From Desulfarculaceae bacterium (GTDB taxonomy: Bacteria; Desulfobacterota; Desulfarculia; Desulfarculales; Desulfarculaceae), in NCBI GenBank assembly GCA_020444545.1, contig JAHLKT010000004.1, forward strand, positions 310,001 through 374,000: 64,000 nucleotides of DNA, given 5' to 3'. Each line of letters opens with the position of its first letter. The stretch's first letter is position 1. The translations under genes and the position numbers were made by a program. Shown one piece after another: positions 18,042-27,608 of this stretch. The notes beneath the pieces were generated by a model. That model was not told where the DNA came from. It did not search any database and was given only the letters and a program-made list of their open reading frames with translations.

Positions 18042-19835
18042 ATGGGAATTCTAGGCTGGACTTACGTATTCGTCGGAATAACCTTCGCCCTCTATATCTT
18101 CGTCGCCTGGCGCACCCGGGTGTCCGACACCAAGGGCTTCTACGTGGCGGGCATGGGCGTGCCCCCGGTGGCCAACGGCATGGCCACCGCGGCGGACTGG
18201 ATGAGCGCGGCGAGCTTCATCTCCATGGCCGGCCTCATCAGCTTCCTGGGTTATCCCGGGGCCTACTACCTGATGGGCTGGACCGGAGGCTATGTGCTGC
18301 TGGCTCTGTTGCTGGCGCCGTACCTGCGTAAATTCGGAAAGTACACGGTGCCCGACTTCGTGGGCGACCGCTACTACTCCACGGCCGCGCGTCTGGTGGC
18401 CGCGGCCTGTACGGTGTTCGTGTCCTACACCTACGTCTGCGGCCAGATGCGCGGCGTGGGCGTGGTCTTTAGCCGCTTCCTCGAGGTGGACATCAACACC
18501 GGTGTGATCATCGGTATGTGTATCGTGTTCATCTACGCGGCCCTGGGCGGCATGAAGGGAATCACCTGGACCCAGGTGTGTCAGTACTGCGTGCTGATCC
18601 TGGCCTACCTGATTCCTGCCATCGCCATCTCCATGAAGGTCACCGGGGTGCCCATCCCTCAGATCGGCTTCGGCAGCACCATCGCCGCCGGCCACGCCGA
18701 CGCGGGCAAGTACCTATTGGACACCCTGAACATCATAGCGAAAGATTTAGGGTTTGTGCAGTACACCGCGACCTTCGCCACGGTGAAGACCAACATGCTC
18801 AACGTGCTGTGCATCACCTTCGCCCTGATGGTGGGCACCGCCGGTCTGCCTCACGTCATCATCCGTTTCTACACGGTGCCCGGCGTGCGTCAGGCCCGGG
18901 CCAGCGCCGGCTGGGCCCTCCTGTTCATCGCCATCCTCTACACCACCGCCCCCGCCGTGGCGGCCTTCGCCCGCTACAACATGATCAACACCCTGGAGGA
19001 CAAGCCATACGTTGAGCGGCCCCAATGGTATACCAACTGGCAAAAGCCGGGACTGGTGGCCTGGGTGGACAAAAACGGGGACGGCATTATCCAGTACCGT
19101 CCCGGCGCGGCCTTTGTGGGCCGGCCCAACTTCCAGGTCAAGGACGGCAAGCGGGTGCTGGGTAAGTACGGCCAGCCCCTGCTGAACAACAAGATCACCG
19201 CCAATAAGAACGAACTTTACGTCGACCGCGACATCATGGTGTTGGCCAGTCCGGAGATCGGAGGCCTGTCCGCCTGGGTGGTCGGCTTGGTGGCAGCCGG
19301 AGGTCTGGCCGCGGCCCTATCCACGGCGGCGGGTCTGCTCTTGGCGGTCTCGTCTTCCATCAGCCACGACTTCTACTTCCGGGTGATAAACCCGCAGGCC
19401 ACTGAGAAGCAGCGCGTGCTGGTGGCCCGTATCTTCATCGGCCTGGCCATCGTATTGGCGGGTTACTTCGGCATCTATCCTCCAGCGTTCGTGGCTCAGG
19501 TGGTGGCCTTCGCCTTCGGCCTTGCCGCGTCGAGCATCTTCCCGGTCATCTTGCTGGGCATCTTCAGCAAGAAGACCACGCGGGAGGGTGCCATCACCGG
19601 CATGGTCTGCGGCATCCTGTTCACGGGCATCTACATCATCCAGACCAAGTTCATGGGCGTGGGCAACTGGTTCTTCGGGATCACCCCCGAGGGCATCGGC
19701 ACCATCGGCATGTGCATCAACCTGCTCGTGACCTTCGGTGTCAGCCGCGTCACCAAGGCTCCGCCCGAGGAGATCCAGGAGCTGGTGGAGAGCGTGCGCA
19801 TTCCGCGCGGCTCCGGCGAGGCCACGGACCACTAG
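18042..19835 (+). CDS. actP: Cation/acetate-type symporter (SSS family, VC_2705-like)
   Basis: A 597-residue solute:sodium symporter with about 13 transmembrane helices. Recognisable SSS segments are GFYVAGMGVPPVANGMATAA, FGKYTVPDFVGDRYY, TAGLPHVIIRFYTVPGVRQA and GGLAAALSTAAGLLLAVSSS. It belongs to the acetate-permease branch that pairs with DUF4212. The neighbouring acetyl-CoA synthetase and DUF294 proteins support acetate or another short carboxylate as substrate. A soluble loop at about residues 320-395, between membrane segments, contains an EF-hand-like stretch (DKNGDGIIQY, 343-352). The symbol actP is used in the broad sense; the substrate is not proven. Confidence 0.88.
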   Translation: MGILGWTYVFVGITFALYIFVAWRTRVSDTKGFYVAGMGVPPVANGMATAADWMSAASFISMAGLISFLGYPGAYYLMGWTGGYVLLALLLAPYLRKFGKYTVPDFVGDRYYSTAARLVAAACTVFVSYTYVCGQMRGVGVVFSRFLEVDINTGVIIGMCIVFIYAALGGMKGITWTQVCQYCVLILAYLIPAIAISMKVTGVPIPQIGFGSTIAAGHADAGKYLLDTLNIIAKDLGFVQYTATFATVKTNMLNVLCITFALMVGTAGLPHVIIRFYTVPGVRQARASAGWALLFIAILYTTAPAVAAFARYNMINTLEDKPYVERPQWYTNWQKPGLVAWVDKNGDGIIQYRPGAAFVGRPNFQVKDGKRVLGKYGQPLLNNKITANKNELYVDRDIMVLASPEIGGLSAWVVGLVAAGGLAAALSTAAGLLLAVSSSISHDFYFRVINPQATEKQRVLVARIFIGLAIVLAGYFGIYPPAFVAQVVAFAFGLAASSIFPVILLGIFSKKTTREGAITGMVCGILFTGIYIIQTKFMGVGNWFFGITPEGIGTIGMCINLLVTFGVSRVTKAPPEEIQELVESVRIPRGSGEATDH

Positions 19836-19951: not shown

Positions 19952-20782
19952 ATGCGCAAGCTAATGACCCCAGAGCAGCAGTTGCAACGCGAGCTGGTCA
20001 AGGGCGGCCTGGCCGCCGCCGCGCCGGGCCTGGCCGTGTTGGTGGTGGCCCTGGCCGTGGACCCCATCTCTTTGCTGGCCCGCTTCCATTTGGGCTTTTT
20101 CGGGATGCTGGGCTTGGCGGCCCTGCTGTTCGTGATGGCCTATCTTCTGCGCAAGGCCCGCTGGTGGGCCGGCTTACCGGCCCTCGCCGCCTCGGCCGGA
20201 GCCATGGTCTACTTTGCCATGAAATTTCTGCGGCCCTTGAACGCCTATTTCGAGTACAACAAGGCCGACGGCATCGGCGGGGTCCTGGAGCCCCTGATGC
20301 TGCTCTCGCCCCAGCTGGTCATGGTGCTCATCGCCCTGACCCTGGGCCTTTTGGTGCTCCGCACCGTGCGCATGACCAAGCCCATGCCGCCCCTGCCGGT
20401 GAACCGGCTGGCCTGGGGAGTGCTTTTGTTGTGGCTGGTGATTCTGGGCGGCGACGCGGTGTACCAGAACTATGCCTGGCGCTTCATGGCCGGCCCCGGC
20501 GACTTGGTCATGCGCCTGTGCCTGGGCTCGGCCGAGGACCGCGCCCTGGCTCAGAACCGGCTTTTGGGCATGGGGGCCGACGCGGCTCCGGCCCTGGTCA
20601 AGGGCCTTAGCGCCGGGGGCAACGCGGTGGACGTGCTAAATGACTGCACCCGCGAACAGAGCCTGGCCCTGTTGAAGGCCCTACGCCGCGAAGGCCTGCC
20701 CGCCCTGCGCGCCGCGGCCCGAGCCGGCGACCCCATGGCGCAACAGGCCCTAAAGAAGCTCACCTCCCGGGGGGGAAGCTAA
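19952..20782 (+). CDS. Uncharacterised membrane protein with C-terminal helical repeat-like region
   Basis: A 276-residue protein I cannot assign to a family. Residues 1-185 hold about five hydrophobic segments (near 20-37, 48-66, 72-92, 112-134 and 150-166). The last 90 residues are soluble, helical and alanine-leucine rich (LGMGADAAPALVKGLSAGG, LKALRREGLPALRAAARAG), with the rhythm of HEAT-like repeats. TAGGAG precedes the ATG. It sits alone between the symporter terminator and the convergent DUF294 gene, which ends only 13 bases beyond it. Its position inside the acetate-type module suggests, but does not show, a related role. Confidence 0.75.
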   Translation: MRKLMTPEQQLQRELVKGGLAAAAPGLAVLVVALAVDPISLLARFHLGFFGMLGLAALLFVMAYLLRKARWWAGLPALAASAGAMVYFAMKFLRPLNAYFEYNKADGIGGVLEPLMLLSPQLVMVLIALTLGLLVLRTVRMTKPMPPLPVNRLAWGVLLLWLVILGGDAVYQNYAWRFMAGPGDLVMRLCLGSAEDRALAQNRLLGMGADAAPALVKGLSAGGNAVDVLNDCTREQSLALLKALRREGLPALRAAARAGDPMAQQALKKLTSRGGS

Positions 20783-20794
20783 GTCCTTACCGAA

Positions 20795-22723
20795 TTATCC
20801 CTGATCCAGACTGAATTGATCTTTTAGCGCCGACTTGATCTCGTTCGTCACCGCAAAGGCGTCCTTCAAGGTGTGGCGCTCCAGGTCCGAGAGCTCGCTG
20901 GGGTCCAGGTAGTTGTCCGGCTCCAGGCCCTGCTCGTCCAGGCGCTGCTGGTGCAGCAGCCTCAACTGCATCTGAAACTCATAGGCCTGGATGGCCTTGG
21001 TGGTCAGCTCCGAGGAGAGGAAGCCACCGTCGCCCAGCAGGCGCAGGCGCTCCAGGGTGTTGGTCTCCTTGATGCCGTGCTTGAGGGCCAGCACCCGGGC
21101 GAAGTCCACGAAGGGCACCAGGCCCTTGGTCTTTAAGTCCACCTTGTTCTTGTGCTTGCCCTTTTTTTCCAGCACGAAGTTGCGGAACATGGTCAGTGGC
21201 GAGGGCGTGGTCAGGGTGTCGCGGGCCAGCAGGCGGAAGAACATGTCCTGGCCCCGCGCCTGCTTGGTCAGATGATCGCGCAGGCGCTCGCCCAAGGCGA
21301 GCTCGCCGAAGCCGGGACGGAAGTCGAAGAAGATGGTGGCGTAGAGCACTTCCTTGGGCTTGGGCACGCTGATCCAGCGGTCGAAGTAGTTTCGCCATCC
21401 CTTGTAGGATTGGCGCCACTTGGGGTTGGAGGCCATGACCTCGCCCGGGCAGCGCGGGAAGCCGCAGGCCACCAGGTGCTCGATGGCCTTGGCCCCGAAC
21501 TCGGCGAAGTACTCCTGTGCGAACTGGGCCAGGCCCGGGTCCTCGGAATCGGCATAGAGCAGGCCGTTGTCCTGGTCGGTGCGGAAGGTCTGCTCGCGGC
21601 GTCCCTCCGAGCCCATCAACAGCCAGCAGTAAGGCACCGGCGGCGTGCCCATCTCCGACTGCAACAGACTGAGCACCTTTTCCAGGATGTAGTCGTTGAG
21701 CAGGGTGATCATGCGGGTGATGTTGCCCGGCCGCGCGCCCTCGTAGATAAGCGAACGCACCACCAGGGGGGTGCGGCGCGATACATCGTAAATCTCGTCG
21801 TAGCTCTCGGTGGCCAGGATCTCCCGAAGCAAATAGAAGGGGCTGGCGCCCTGGGCCACCATCAGATCGTGGCCGCCCACCAGGCCCACGATCTCGCCGC
21901 GCCGTTCGATGGCCAAATGATGCACCTTGCGCTTGAGCATCTCCAGCAGGGCGTCGAAGCACACCGTGTTGAAACCGATGGTGTGCACCGGATGGCTCAT
22001 GATCTGGCGCACTGGAGCGCGGTGGTCGATGCCCTCGGCCACCACCTTGCGCAAGTCGCGGTCCGTGACCACCCCCACGATCTCGCCGTCCGGGTCGGCC
22101 ACCAACAACGCCCCTACCCGCCCGGCGGTGAGCTGGCCGGCGGCCCGCTGGATGGGCTCGCCCGCGCTGATCACCTCGGGCCGGCGCCGCACCACGTCGC
22201 CCACCTGGGCGCTGAACAGATACAGCGAGCCTTCGGTGGAGACCGCCGCGCGCGGCTGCCGTAGCTCGGTGAGCGCCTTGCCCACGTAATGCTCGGACAG
22301 GTACTTGAGGTAGTACTGGGCGAAACGGGCGCTTTTTTCGGTGAGGTTCAGAAACTCTTCGCGGGGAATCAAGAGGCAGGCGGTGTCCTCGGTGGCCTCA
22401 GCGTTCAAGTTGGACAGGCTCTCGCGGAAGATTCCCAGGGCGCCCAGGGTCTCGCCCGGGCCCCGCATCTCTTGCAGGTTTTCCGAGCCGTCCTGGCCGG
22501 GGAGGAAAAGGCGCACCTGTCCCTCGTGGATGATCAAGAGGTGGGTGACCTGGCTCTGCCCCGCTTGCAGGATAAGCTCGCCCGAGCTGTAGTGGCGCAG
22601 GGTGATCTTTTCCAACAGGCTCTCCAGGCCGGAGCGGCCCAGCTCCTGAAAGGGCGGCACCTTCAGCAGAAAGGAGATCAGGGTCTCGCGGGGAACGGAA
22701 ATCCCACTCTCGCCTTTGATCAT
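20795..22723 (-). CDS. cNMP-binding/CBS/DUF294 nucleotidyltransferase-like signalling protein, copy 1
   Basis: A 642-residue cytoplasmic regulator. Residues about 18-130 form a cyclic-nucleotide-binding-like domain (GELILQAGQSQVTHLLIIHEG). Two CBS domains span about 175-295 (GRVGALLVADPDGEIVGVVT, HHLAIERRGEIVGLVGGHDL). A DUF294 nucleotidyltransferase domain follows, with GSEGRREQ at 371-378 and metal-binding Asp383 and Asp385 in TDQDNGLL, then a DUF294 C-terminal helical domain. This is the GlnD-like fold, so it may transfer a nucleotide to a protein target in response to adenylate or cyclic nucleotide levels. Unlike its paralogue at 25686 it keeps the catalytic aspartates. A GGAGGAGG site precedes the ATG. 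It lies downstream of acs. Confidence 0.9.
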   Translation of the reverse strand: MIKGESGISVPRETLISFLLKVPPFQELGRSGLESLLEKITLRHYSSGELILQAGQSQVTHLLIIHEGQVRLFLPGQDGSENLQEMRGPGETLGALGIFRESLSNLNAEATEDTACLLIPREEFLNLTEKSARFAQYYLKYLSEHYVGKALTELRQPRAAVSTEGSLYLFSAQVGDVVRRRPEVISAGEPIQRAAGQLTAGRVGALLVADPDGEIVGVVTDRDLRKVVAEGIDHRAPVRQIMSHPVHTIGFNTVCFDALLEMLKRKVHHLAIERRGEIVGLVGGHDLMVAQGASPFYLLREILATESYDEIYDVSRRTPLVVRSLIYEGARPGNITRMITLLNDYILEKVLSLLQSEMGTPPVPYCWLLMGSEGRREQTFRTDQDNGLLYADSEDPGLAQFAQEYFAEFGAKAIEHLVACGFPRCPGEVMASNPKWRQSYKGWRNYFDRWISVPKPKEVLYATIFFDFRPGFGELALGERLRDHLTKQARGQDMFFRLLARDTLTTPSPLTMFRNFVLEKKGKHKNKVDLKTKGLVPFVDFARVLALKHGIKETNTLERLRLLGDGGFLSSELTTKAIQAYEFQMQLRLLHQQRLDEQGLEPDNYLDPSELSDLERHTLKDAFAVTNEIKSALKDQFSLDQG

Positions 22724-22826: not shown

Positions 22827-24815
<1,989 letters not shown>

Positions 24816-24938: not shown

Positions 24939-25658
24939 CTACAAAACCCCGGCCACGGCGATCAAATCGGCTAGGGTGCTCCAGCCGCCGGCGGCCATCT
25001 CCGGCAGCAGGCGTTGCAGGATCATGGCCGTGGCCAAGGCGTCGCCCAGGGCGGTGTGCCGCTCGGGCACCTCCAGCCCGTAACGGGCGGCCAGAAAATC
25101 CAGGCTGCAACGCTTGGCCCCTTTTTTCTGCCCATAGGGATCGGGCTCCAGGTGGATGGCCCGGCACATGAGCACCGTGTCCACCACCAAATTCTGTATT
25201 CGCATCCCGTACTGGGCCCGCATCACCCGGTTCAAGAAGTACATGTCGAAGCGGGCGTAGTGGGCCACCACGATGTCGCCGCCCAGGTAAAACAAGAAAT
25301 CGCGGAACACCTCCCAGGCCGGCCGGGCGTCGCGGATGTTGTCCGGGGTGATGCCGTGCACCTTGATCGACTCCACCGGTATGCCCCGCCCCGGGTTGGC
25401 CAGCTCGGAAAACACGTCGCCCAGGCGTATCTTGCCCCCCACCACCCGAAAGGCCCCCACGCTCACCACCCGGTCCTTGGTGGGGTCCAGGCCGGTGGTC
25501 TCCAGGTCCACCACCACGTAGCGCTGCTCCTGGGCCGAAGCCTTGCCCTGCTTGCCCTCCAGGGCCATGAGGTTGCCCCGCGCCTCTGGGGGCAGCTTGC
25601 GGTGGGCCAGGCGTAGGCTTGATAGCCGGTTCAGCAGGCGCGCTTGCCACAGATTCAA
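24939..25658 (-). CDS. DEDDh 3'-5' exonuclease (DnaQ/DNA polymerase III epsilon-like)
   Basis: A 239-residue exonuclease-fold protein. The DEDDh motifs are complete: VVDLETTGLDP (Asp, Glu), VAHYARFDMYFL (Asp) and a late HTALGDALATA (His and Asp). It hydrolyses 3' ends of DNA or RNA. The epsilon-like fold is also found beside DUF294 proteins and acetate symporters in other proteobacteria, where it is of unknown purpose. Start is uncertain: TTG at 25658 keeps the frame contiguous with the upstream gene, 27 bases away, but has a poorly spaced ribosome site; the first ATG would give a protein about 30 residues shorter. It is co-directional with DUF294 copy 2 and acs. Confidence 0.87.
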   Translation of the reverse strand: MNLWQARLLNRLSSLRLAHRKLPPEARGNLMALEGKQGKASAQEQRYVVVDLETTGLDPTKDRVVSVGAFRVVGGKIRLGDVFSELANPGRGIPVESIKVHGITPDNIRDARPAWEVFRDFLFYLGGDIVVAHYARFDMYFLNRVMRAQYGMRIQNLVVDTVLMCRAIHLEPDPYGQKKGAKRCSLDFLAARYGLEVPERHTALGDALATAMILQRLLPEMAAGGWSTLADLIAVAGVL

Positions 25659-25685: not shown

Positions 25686-27608
25686 TCAGGCCTGATAGCG
25701 TTGCAGGGCGAATTCCTGCAAGCGGCTGATCACCGAGAAACTTTCCTTGAGCATCTTGCGCTGCACCCGGTTGAGGCTGGCCGGGTCCAGGAAGCCGCTG
25801 GGCTGGTGGCCGTTGTTGCTCTCCAACATCCGGGAGATGCGCAACAGGGTCACGAAGCCGTAGGCCTCGCGCAGGTCCTCGGCAAAGTCGGGCTTGAGCA
25901 GGCCCAGGCGGGCGACCGCGCCCAGGCGCTCCAGGGTGTTGGTCTGGCGCAGGCGCTGCTCCAGGGCCAGCAGCCGCGCCCCCTGCACCACCGGGTCCAG
26001 GGCCGACTCGTCCAGGTTAAGCTCGTCGCTGTACTGGCCTTCGGTGTCCACCACGAAATCGCGCAAAAAGCCCACCGGCGGCCTGAGCTGGGAGGCCGCC
26101 TTGCCCATGCGCCCCAGAAAATCACGATTCGCCTCCACCGCCGCGAAGACCTTTTCCCACAGGGCCTCCACGAAGTCGGTTTCCGCGTAGACCGCGCGCA
26201 GGTCGAAGTAGCTGAGTATGGGGGTGAGGGCCTCGGGCTCGGCCGAGGCGATCCAGCCCAAAAAGCTCTGTTCCCACTGGCTCTCCGAGCGGCAGCAGGC
26301 GTCGGGGTCGGCCATGATGGCCCCGGGGCGGCAGAAGTGGCTGCAGGTCTCCAGGCCCGAGCGCACCCGCCGGATGAACTCCACGAACCACTCGCGCACC
26401 GCGGCCTCGCGTTCCGGGGGTACGTTGGCATAGACCACCGCGTAGTTCTGCCCCAGGCTCAGGGCCTGCTCCCGCCGGCCCACCGCGCCCAGGGCCAGCC
26501 AGGAGAACTGCACCGGCGCCCGGCCCTTGCCCCGGTTCTCCATCTCGCGCTGGGTGATCTTGAGCAGCCGCAGGATCAGGCGGTCGTTGAACTCGCCCAG
26601 CACGTCCTGCATGTAATCCGCGCTGCCTCCCAGGCGCAGCAGGGTCTCCATGACCCGTTTCATGCGCCCGGGCATGGCGGCCAGGTCCTCCAGCTTGGAG
26701 ACCTTGGAGACCTCTTTCATAACCCCCACCGGCGAGGAGCCGGTGACCATGGTCAGGTCGTGGTCCGAGATCACCCCCACCAGGCGGGCGCTCTCGGTAA
26801 CGGCCAGGTGGTGCACCCCGTGGCGGGCCATCTCGATCATGGCCTCAAAGGCAAAGGCCTGGGCCGAGATGGTCTTGACCAACGGGGTCATCACCTCGGC
26901 CACCGGGGTTTCGGGGTCGACCCCGGCCGCCAAGATCCGCACCCGCAGGTCGGTGTCGGTGAGGATGCCCAGGGGCGCGCCGCCGGGCTCGGTGATGATG
27001 ATGGAGCCCACCCGGCGCTGGGTCATCAGGCGGGCCGCCGCCTTGGCCGGGGTGGCGGCCAGGCAGGTGAGCACCTCCTTGCTCATCAGCTCGGCCACCC
27101 GGCTGCCGGTGAGCACCGCGTCCAGGCCCAGGGACTCGGTGCCGGTCATCTGCATGGTGTGGCGGTCGGCCGCGCGGCGCACCGCCTCGATGTTGCGCGA
27201 AAGGCCGAAGCTGAAGTGGCGCCGGAAGACCGGGTTCTCCTCCACCAGCTCGCGGAAGGGGTTGCCGGGCAGCAGGAAGCACAAGAGGTCCTCCTGGGCC
27301 AGCACCGTGAACAGGGCCAACTCGCCCTGCAACAGGCTCAGCGCGCCGAAGGTGTCGCCCTCGCCGCGCATGTCGATCAGAAGCTCCTCGCCGCTTTCGC
27401 GCGGCAGGGTGACCCGCACCGAGCCGTTCATGATCACGTAGAGGTTTTCCGAGGGGGATTCGCCGGCCTGGATGATCACCTGGCCGCGTGGGAAGTAGGC
27501 CAACTCCATCAGGCCGACAACGCGCTCCAACTCCGCCTCGTCCAAGGCGTCGAAAGGCACCACGGTCTTCAGGAAATCCTTGATGCGGGGTAGCGGGAAC
27601 TCGCCCAT
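25686..27608 (-). CDS. cNMP-binding/CBS/DUF294 protein, copy 2, with degenerate nucleotidyltransferase site
   Basis: A 640-residue paralogue of the protein at 20795, with the same order: cNMP-binding-like domain (about 10-125), two CBS domains (about 170-290), DUF294 nucleotidyltransferase domain and C-terminal helical domain. The nucleotidyltransferase motif keeps GRRE (377-380), but the two metal-binding aspartates of TDQDN are replaced by Gly386 and Asn388 (LGQNY), with no change of length. It is therefore unlikely to transfer nucleotides and may be a regulatory or decoy partner of copy 1. ATG at 27608 has GAGG upstream. It heads the operon with the exonuclease, and the shared 42-base promoter element lies about 160 bases before it. 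Confidence 0.9.
   Translation of the reverse strand: MGEFPLPRIKDFLKTVVPFDALDEAELERVVGLMELAYFPRGQVIIQAGESPSENLYVIMNGSVRVTLPRESGEELLIDMRGEGDTFGALSLLQGELALFTVLAQEDLLCFLLPGNPFRELVEENPVFRRHFSFGLSRNIEAVRRAADRHTMQMTGTESLGLDAVLTGSRVAELMSKEVLTCLAATPAKAAARLMTQRRVGSIIITEPGGAPLGILTDTDLRVRILAAGVDPETPVAEVMTPLVKTISAQAFAFEAMIEMARHGVHHLAVTESARLVGVISDHDLTMVTGSSPVGVMKEVSKVSKLEDLAAMPGRMKRVMETLLRLGGSADYMQDVLGEFNDRLILRLLKITQREMENRGKGRAPVQFSWLALGAVGRREQALSLGQNYAVVYANVPPEREAAVREWFVEFIRRVRSGLETCSHFCRPGAIMADPDACCRSESQWEQSFLGWIASAEPEALTPILSYFDLRAVYAETDFVEALWEKVFAAVEANRDFLGRMGKAASQLRPPVGFLRDFVVDTEGQYSDELNLDESALDPVVQGARLLALEQRLRQTNTLERLGAVARLGLLKPDFAEDLREAYGFVTLLRISRMLESNNGHQPSGFLDPASLNRVQRKMLKESFSVISRLQEFALQRYQA

Follow-up and report, generated by a model that had tools for sequence, protein, structure and literature searches.

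A DUF294-family gene located close to the acetyl-CoA synthetase gene (acs) of a Desulfarculaceae bacterium encodes a protein, hereafter P1, that is very probably a pseudo-nucleotidyltransferase maintained by selection, and the finding is real, ancient and recurrent. Pairs of a DUF294 gene and an exonuclease gene are widespread in acetate gene clusters, and the DUF294 enzyme is poorly understood. With natural copies that appear to lack catalysis but have kept the sensor and the exonuclease partner, it may be possible to tell binding and transfer roles apart, and pairing a degenerate protein with its intact counterpart might offer a ready tool in the search for partner, ligand and mark.

A degenerate DUF294 protein at the acs locus

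The window is the whole stretch of DNA that was analysed (64,000 nucleotides), and all positions below refer to it. The features at the locus and the evidence for each are as follows.

18042..19835, plus strand: sodium:solute symporter, actP-like, conserved at the locus (Pfam, synteny)
19952..20782, plus strand: 276-aa protein, conserved between the symporter and P2 (synteny)
20795..22723, minus strand: P2, intact DUF294 protein with motif GSEGRREQTFRTDQDN (Pfam, alignment)
21566..21613, minus strand: intact active-site motif of P2 (alignment)
22827..24815, minus strand: acs, acetyl-CoA synthetase, ATG at 24815 (Pfam, sequence)
24939..25658, minus strand: EXO, RNase_T / DEDDh 3'-5' exonuclease with intact catalytic residues (Pfam, motif check, spacing)
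25686..27608, minus strand: P1, degenerate DUF294 protein, 640 aa (ORF, Pfam, orthologues, tree)
26202..26204, minus strand: D469 of FDLR, candidate third acidic residue, kept throughout the degenerate and intact copies (alignment)
26442..26489, minus strand: degenerate active-site motif of P1, residues 374-389, GAVGRREQALSLGQNY; GSEGRREQTxRTDQDN in intact relatives (alignment)

Genes on the minus strand are arranged in the order P1, EXO, acs and P2, with the symporter and the 276-aa protein on the plus strand, and EXO starts 27 nt past the P1 stop codon. This layout agrees with an earlier note on this DNA, which described an active and an inactive copy flanking acs: P2 is intact and P1 degenerate by motif, with EXO lying between P1 and acs. 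Another contig (C6) holds one more DUF294 gene, the third in this genome, which likewise has an exonuclease gene of its own. The earlier note mentioned neither this third copy nor EXO, nor the minus-strand orientation of P1. A promoter scan detected no sigma-70-like site, an uninformative result. The 276-aa protein, for which Pfam and NCBIfam gave no match, persists at the locus across genera with 37-86% identity. The possibility of an antiphage system was rejected, the PADLOC matches being at domain level only (cNMP and DEDDh parts).

The P1 open reading frame has an ATG start and zero internal stops. Its Pfam domains (cNMP_binding, two CBS domains, DUF294 and DUF294_C) are arranged as they are in P2, as the earlier note had said, and this is the cNMP-CBS-CBS-DUF294-DUF294_C order of COG2905-type signalling proteins. 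P1 belongs to the DUF294 family, scoring 97 bits against a curated cut-off of 21 for PF03445 and 135 against 22.5 for PF10335; the DUF294 score is 97 bits in P1 versus 168 bits in P2. In the alignment, P1 has GAVGRREQALSLGQNYA at the position of GSEGRREQTFRTDQDNG in P2, and its metal-binding pair is G386/N388, aligned exactly to both Asp residues of TDQDN, so that the Asp pair in the GS...TDQD motif of active polymerase-beta-type nucleotidyltransferases is missing. D469 is a putative third metal ligand by comparison with nucleotidyltransferases in general. As in a pseudoenzyme, the catalytic residues are gone, and the predicted fold and purifying selection are kept across orthologues; judged from the sequence, loss of catalysis in P1 is strongly supported. 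At residue 389, the position of the Asn after the second Asp, Tyr or His occurs in many degenerate copies, including two independent losses (L105, L113, L157), and an aromatic residue at this position could fill the nucleotide pocket.

Orthologues and descent

Readable P1 orthologues at this locus were available from 15 separate genomes in four genera, and the first Asp is present in none of them. Their motifs are LGQNY, MSQDY, QGQDY (four times), SPQDH, VVQEH, AGQEH, LFQQH, TCQMN (four times) and TAQHN, with Gln between the two metal-binding positions in all 15, whereas [TS]DQDN is intact in 14/14 P2-type and 17/17 third-copy-type proteins. The second position is occupied by Asp in six orthologues, by Glu in two, and by Asn, Met, His or Gln in the others. 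Considering that an acidic residue is still found there in these eight, Asn388 is a change private to this genome; the nearest orthologue of P1 (85% identical) retains the second Asp. Thus, the earlier proposal that both catalytic aspartates have been lost is correct for this genome but does not extend to the orthologues, among which only the first Asp is uniformly gone. The same note had named orthologues with intact aspartates at this locus as a sign of local mutation; we looked for such orthologues and found none among the 15 readable ones, which rules out a local mutation or sequencing error in P1.

Maximum likelihood-based phylogenetic analysis placed the P1 orthologues in a single clade (support 100/100) whose sister is the intact third-copy (C6) clade, a relation that holds when the motif columns are omitted. 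P1 is 48% identical to the C6 copy and 29% identical to P2, so the two copies flanking acs are not each other's nearest paralogues, and the tree rules out P1 as a direct duplicate of P2. Genera g1, g4 and g7 of the same family share the order P1-exonuclease-acs-P2, which is also found in genus g5, there in two pieces on cut contigs. P1, P2 and the adjoining exonuclease are all absent in three relatives that have their own acs (G002, 81% identity of acs; G009, 78-81%; G008, 57-59%), implying that the module is either there or missing as one block.

Selective constraint

Within-genus comparison by a simple Nei-Gojobori count, which gives approximate values, yielded a median omega that is higher for P1 (0.31) than for P2 (0.19) or the third copy (0.24). 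P1 is under purifying selection (omega about 0.3), and a pseudogene is ruled out by this value and by the full-length frames. The domain constraint of P1 is inverted, with the catalytic half evolving faster than the sensor half and the opposite in both intact paralogues. In P1, dN is 0.089 for the cNMP part, 0.203 for the nucleotidyltransferase part and 0.203 for the C-terminal part; the corresponding values are 0.137, 0.122 and 0.079 in P2, and 0.144, 0.090 and 0.071 in the third copy. Across 13 genomes, divergence in the catalytic half is 1.33 times that in the sensor half for P1, compared with 0.75 times for both intact clades. Among columns that are invariant in both intact clades, P1 has lost 5/33 in the sensor half and 31/66 in the catalytic half (22/44 in the nucleotidyltransferase part and 9/22 in the C-terminal part; Fisher p 0.002 for sensor versus rest, with the caveat that neighboring columns are not independent). 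In the reverse control, the intact sister clade lost 0/18 and 0/11 columns, that is, 0/29 in the catalytic half. The earlier idea of a sensor built on a nucleotidyltransferase fits these data, in that the sensor half is better kept than the catalytic half and the degenerate state is old, was inherited and is held under purifying selection.

These patterns bear on two other explanations. That P1 is a functionless duplicate decaying toward loss is disfavoured and, in our view, very improbable: although its catalytic half is relaxed, its frames are full-length and stop-free in four genera with omega about 0.31, its sensor half is at least as conserved as that of the intact copies, and the gene order is conserved. 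We also regard as quite unlikely the explanation that P1 remains enzymatically active, either by different chemistry based on D469 and other acids or by a non-metal mechanism. D469, R471, G374, G377, R378, E380 and the motif Gln are indeed kept in nearly all P1 orthologues, and the second Asp or Glu is found in 8/15; where these acids persist together with D469, some orthologues may have weak or altered activity. However, no acid is conserved at the first motif position (occupied by G, S, C, A, V, P or F), many other invariants of the catalytic half are gone from P1, and the same site has decayed independently in other lineages.

Predicted structure and possible ligands

AlphaFold2 models based on alignments of 11 sequences (mean pLDDT 74 for P1 and 75 for P2) have the same layout in both proteins, with low confidence for the P1 loop containing residues 375-380. 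When the DUF294 and DUF294_C half of each predicted model was compared with GlnE structures, Z was 25.9 for P1 and 26.0 for P2 against 1v4a (349 residues for P1, rmsd 3.8), and 24.2 and 24.9, respectively, against 3k7d. These models suggest that P1 retains a GlnE-like fold of nucleotidyltransferase plus helical domain, which is a statement about predicted fold and not about membership in GlnE by sequence. A sequence search found no solved structure for the DUF294 part, and a profile of 30 intact DUF294 halves gave chance helical matches only and no significant match to GlnE, so a residue-level map onto GlnE is not drawn.

The CBS motifs of P1, GILTDTDL and GVISDHDL, fit the pattern G-h-h-[ST]-x-x-D and are conserved in orthologues, and by motif the CBS pair is a probable adenine-nucleotide sensor. 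The classical cAMP phosphate-binding cassette has a Glu plus Arg pattern, and the cNMP domain of P1 (FGALSLLQ...LFTVLAQ) contains neither residue, which differs from a CRP-type cAMP receptor; ligands other than cAMP are possible for this domain. Since the CBS motifs are kept and the Glu and Arg are gone, an adenine nucleotide bound at the CBS pair is the likelier signal. Acs turns ATP to AMP, which makes an adenine-nucleotide sensor beside acs plausible.

The adjacent exonuclease and the proposed role of P1

EXO carries the DEDDh residues (D-E, D and H-D), which are intact at every P1 locus. The exonuclease tree separates an acs-locus group from a third-copy group with moderate support (89/77) and mirrors the DUF294 tree. 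The simplest reading is that DUF294 gene and exonuclease gene were duplicated together, and that one of the resulting pairs then had its transferase member, and nothing else, disarmed. P2-type genes of many other members of the phylum are followed by an exonuclease gene; in this family they are not, so that no exonuclease other than EXO was seen at the acs locus. Nearly every DUF294 gene in the phylum has an exonuclease neighbor, and such a neighbor alone is thus no mark of degenerate copies. Moreover, since P1, EXO and P2 are physically linked, their joint presence is weak evidence of contact.

Among several mechanisms, we consider the best to be one in which P1 acts as a nucleotide-sensing regulatory subunit that is coupled to the exonuclease and/or tunes or opposes P2, an explanation towards which we lean slightly. 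An ancestral two-gene unit, composed of an intact cNMP-CBS-DUF294 protein and a DEDDh exonuclease, would have been duplicated in this family; one unit would have stayed intact elsewhere in the genome and the other would have joined acs, where the DUF294 protein would have lost its catalytic metal site with fold, CBS motifs and exonuclease partner retained. P1 would most likely be a nucleotide-sensing regulatory or scaffold subunit, whose CBS pair might read the adenine nucleotide state, which is altered by Acs itself, and whose nucleotidyltransferase-shaped half might make contact with P2, with the exonuclease or with a target common to both. A nucleotide mark could then be written by P2 and erased by EXO, with P1 as the gate on EXO. 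In this scheme we infer the loss of activity, ligand, partners and target of P1 as well as the writer and eraser roles, and the choice of partner for P1 is drawn from gene order and descent.

It is also conceivable, but rather doubtful, that P1 antagonises P2 alone, binding the target of P2 or forming heteromers with it and thereby limiting modification, with the exonuclease as a mere neighbor. P1 and P2 do occur together at the acs locus and are both missing in the three relatives that keep acs, and there are several independent cases of intact and degenerate copies in one cluster. However, P1 is nearer to the C6 copy than to P2 (48% versus 29% identity), so that heteromers with P2 are not favoured by descent, and P1 descends as a unit with EXO, 27 nt apart.

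Comparison with known systems

The locus may be compared with a pair of genes in Pseudomonas, pp_0354/pp_0353 (Pflu5625 in P. fluorescens), which are part of the CrbS/R (MxtR/ErdR) acetate regulon and encode a cAMP-CBS-nucleotidyltransferase protein and an RNase_T exonuclease; growth on acetate was not impaired when either gene was deleted, and a link to pyruvate use has been reported for the exonuclease gene (PMC5715377, PMC9927547). The pair resembles the locus studied here in its described domain set, the downstream RNase_T exonuclease and the acetate setting. However, the Pseudomonas protein is called a nucleotidyltransferase in these papers (by description), whereas P1 is degenerate and accompanied by a second intact DUF294 gene around acs. 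The lack of an acetate phenotype in these knockouts counts against our preferred explanation. DUF294_C belongs to a helical clan common to the C-terminal domains of GlnD/GlnE and HEPN (PMC3710099). P1 and P2 are similar to GlnE (1v4a, 3k7d) in the predicted fold of the DUF294 and DUF294_C half (Z about 24-26), but GlnE has two active nucleotidyltransferase domains per chain and a known target, whereas P1 is devoid of the catalytic Asp pair and has additional cNMP-like and CBS domains.

Among the literature on DUF294, titles and abstracts included none on loss of catalysis, and degenerate DUF294 copies are undescribed in the papers found; a search combining pseudoenzyme, nucleotidyltransferase and CBS domain gave no match. 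In eukaryotes, pseudo-nucleotidyltransferases such as OASL, NF45/NF90 and MiD51 have kept the fold, lost the catalytic acids and taken on a new binding or regulatory role. P1 similarly combines a nucleotidyltransferase fold with lost catalytic acids, but the eukaryotic proteins belong to unrelated subfamilies and have neither a CBS sensor nor an exonuclease partner.

Recurrent loss across the phylum

Among 395 sampled genomes of the phylum, 64 hold a relative, counted if full-length or near full-length with E 1e-60 or better. In a tree of 120 DUF294 proteins built with the motif columns left out, supported branches require the first Asp to have been lost four times: the P1 clade, G138/G356 (PVYDY), G149/G217/G357 (EVQPY, LPQRN and LTQRN), and G171 (FPLKL), which has a long branch and an unsure placement. 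Thus, as reconstructed from these sequences, there are at least three further independent losses besides the P1 clade. All 21 genomes with a degenerate copy also have an intact one, and an intact DEDDh exonuclease gene is present in the same cluster in 4/4 loss cases. A shared stretch with two or more DUF294 genes usually includes one without the first Asp, and the six lone degenerate copies are all at the ends of short or cut contigs. A pattern of this kind, in which loss recurs independently alongside an intact copy, lends itself to direct testing. One could imagine a recurrent three-part switch at acetate loci, in which an intact DUF294 protein writes the nucleotide mark, a DEDDh exonuclease erases it, and a pseudo-nucleotidyltransferase acts as reader and gates the exonuclease according to the adenine nucleotide level; we consider this unlikely, and if it were true, specialisation of a degenerate copy towards erasing would have arisen on four or more occasions.

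Several individual loci were also recorded. In L145 and L146 (G217 and G357), three DUF294 genes lie within about 15 kb, two intact and one degenerate, and the degenerate gene immediately precedes an exonuclease gene. G306 (L128:4191 onward) has a DUF294 gene with TEQET beside an exonuclease gene and a distant acs homologue; as both Asp are replaced by Glu, the substitution may be conservative and the copy not a dead one. The DQD motif is intact in the sampled relatives on Pseudomonadota plasmids, most of which have an exonuclease gene nearby, and those of Paracoccus, Microvirga and Skermanella adjoin acs and/or a symporter. On Paracoccus denitrificans plasmid 1 (L167, 4992-9652), a hypothetical protein and a single-domain response regulator are encoded between the DUF294 gene and a large 3'-5' exonuclease gene, and this region is located downstream of acs, DUF4212 and the symporter. 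On the Vibrio plasmids L168 and L170, the DUF294-exonuclease pair adjoins the sugar-acid catabolism genes kdgR and kduD, implying that the pair is not tied to acetate alone.
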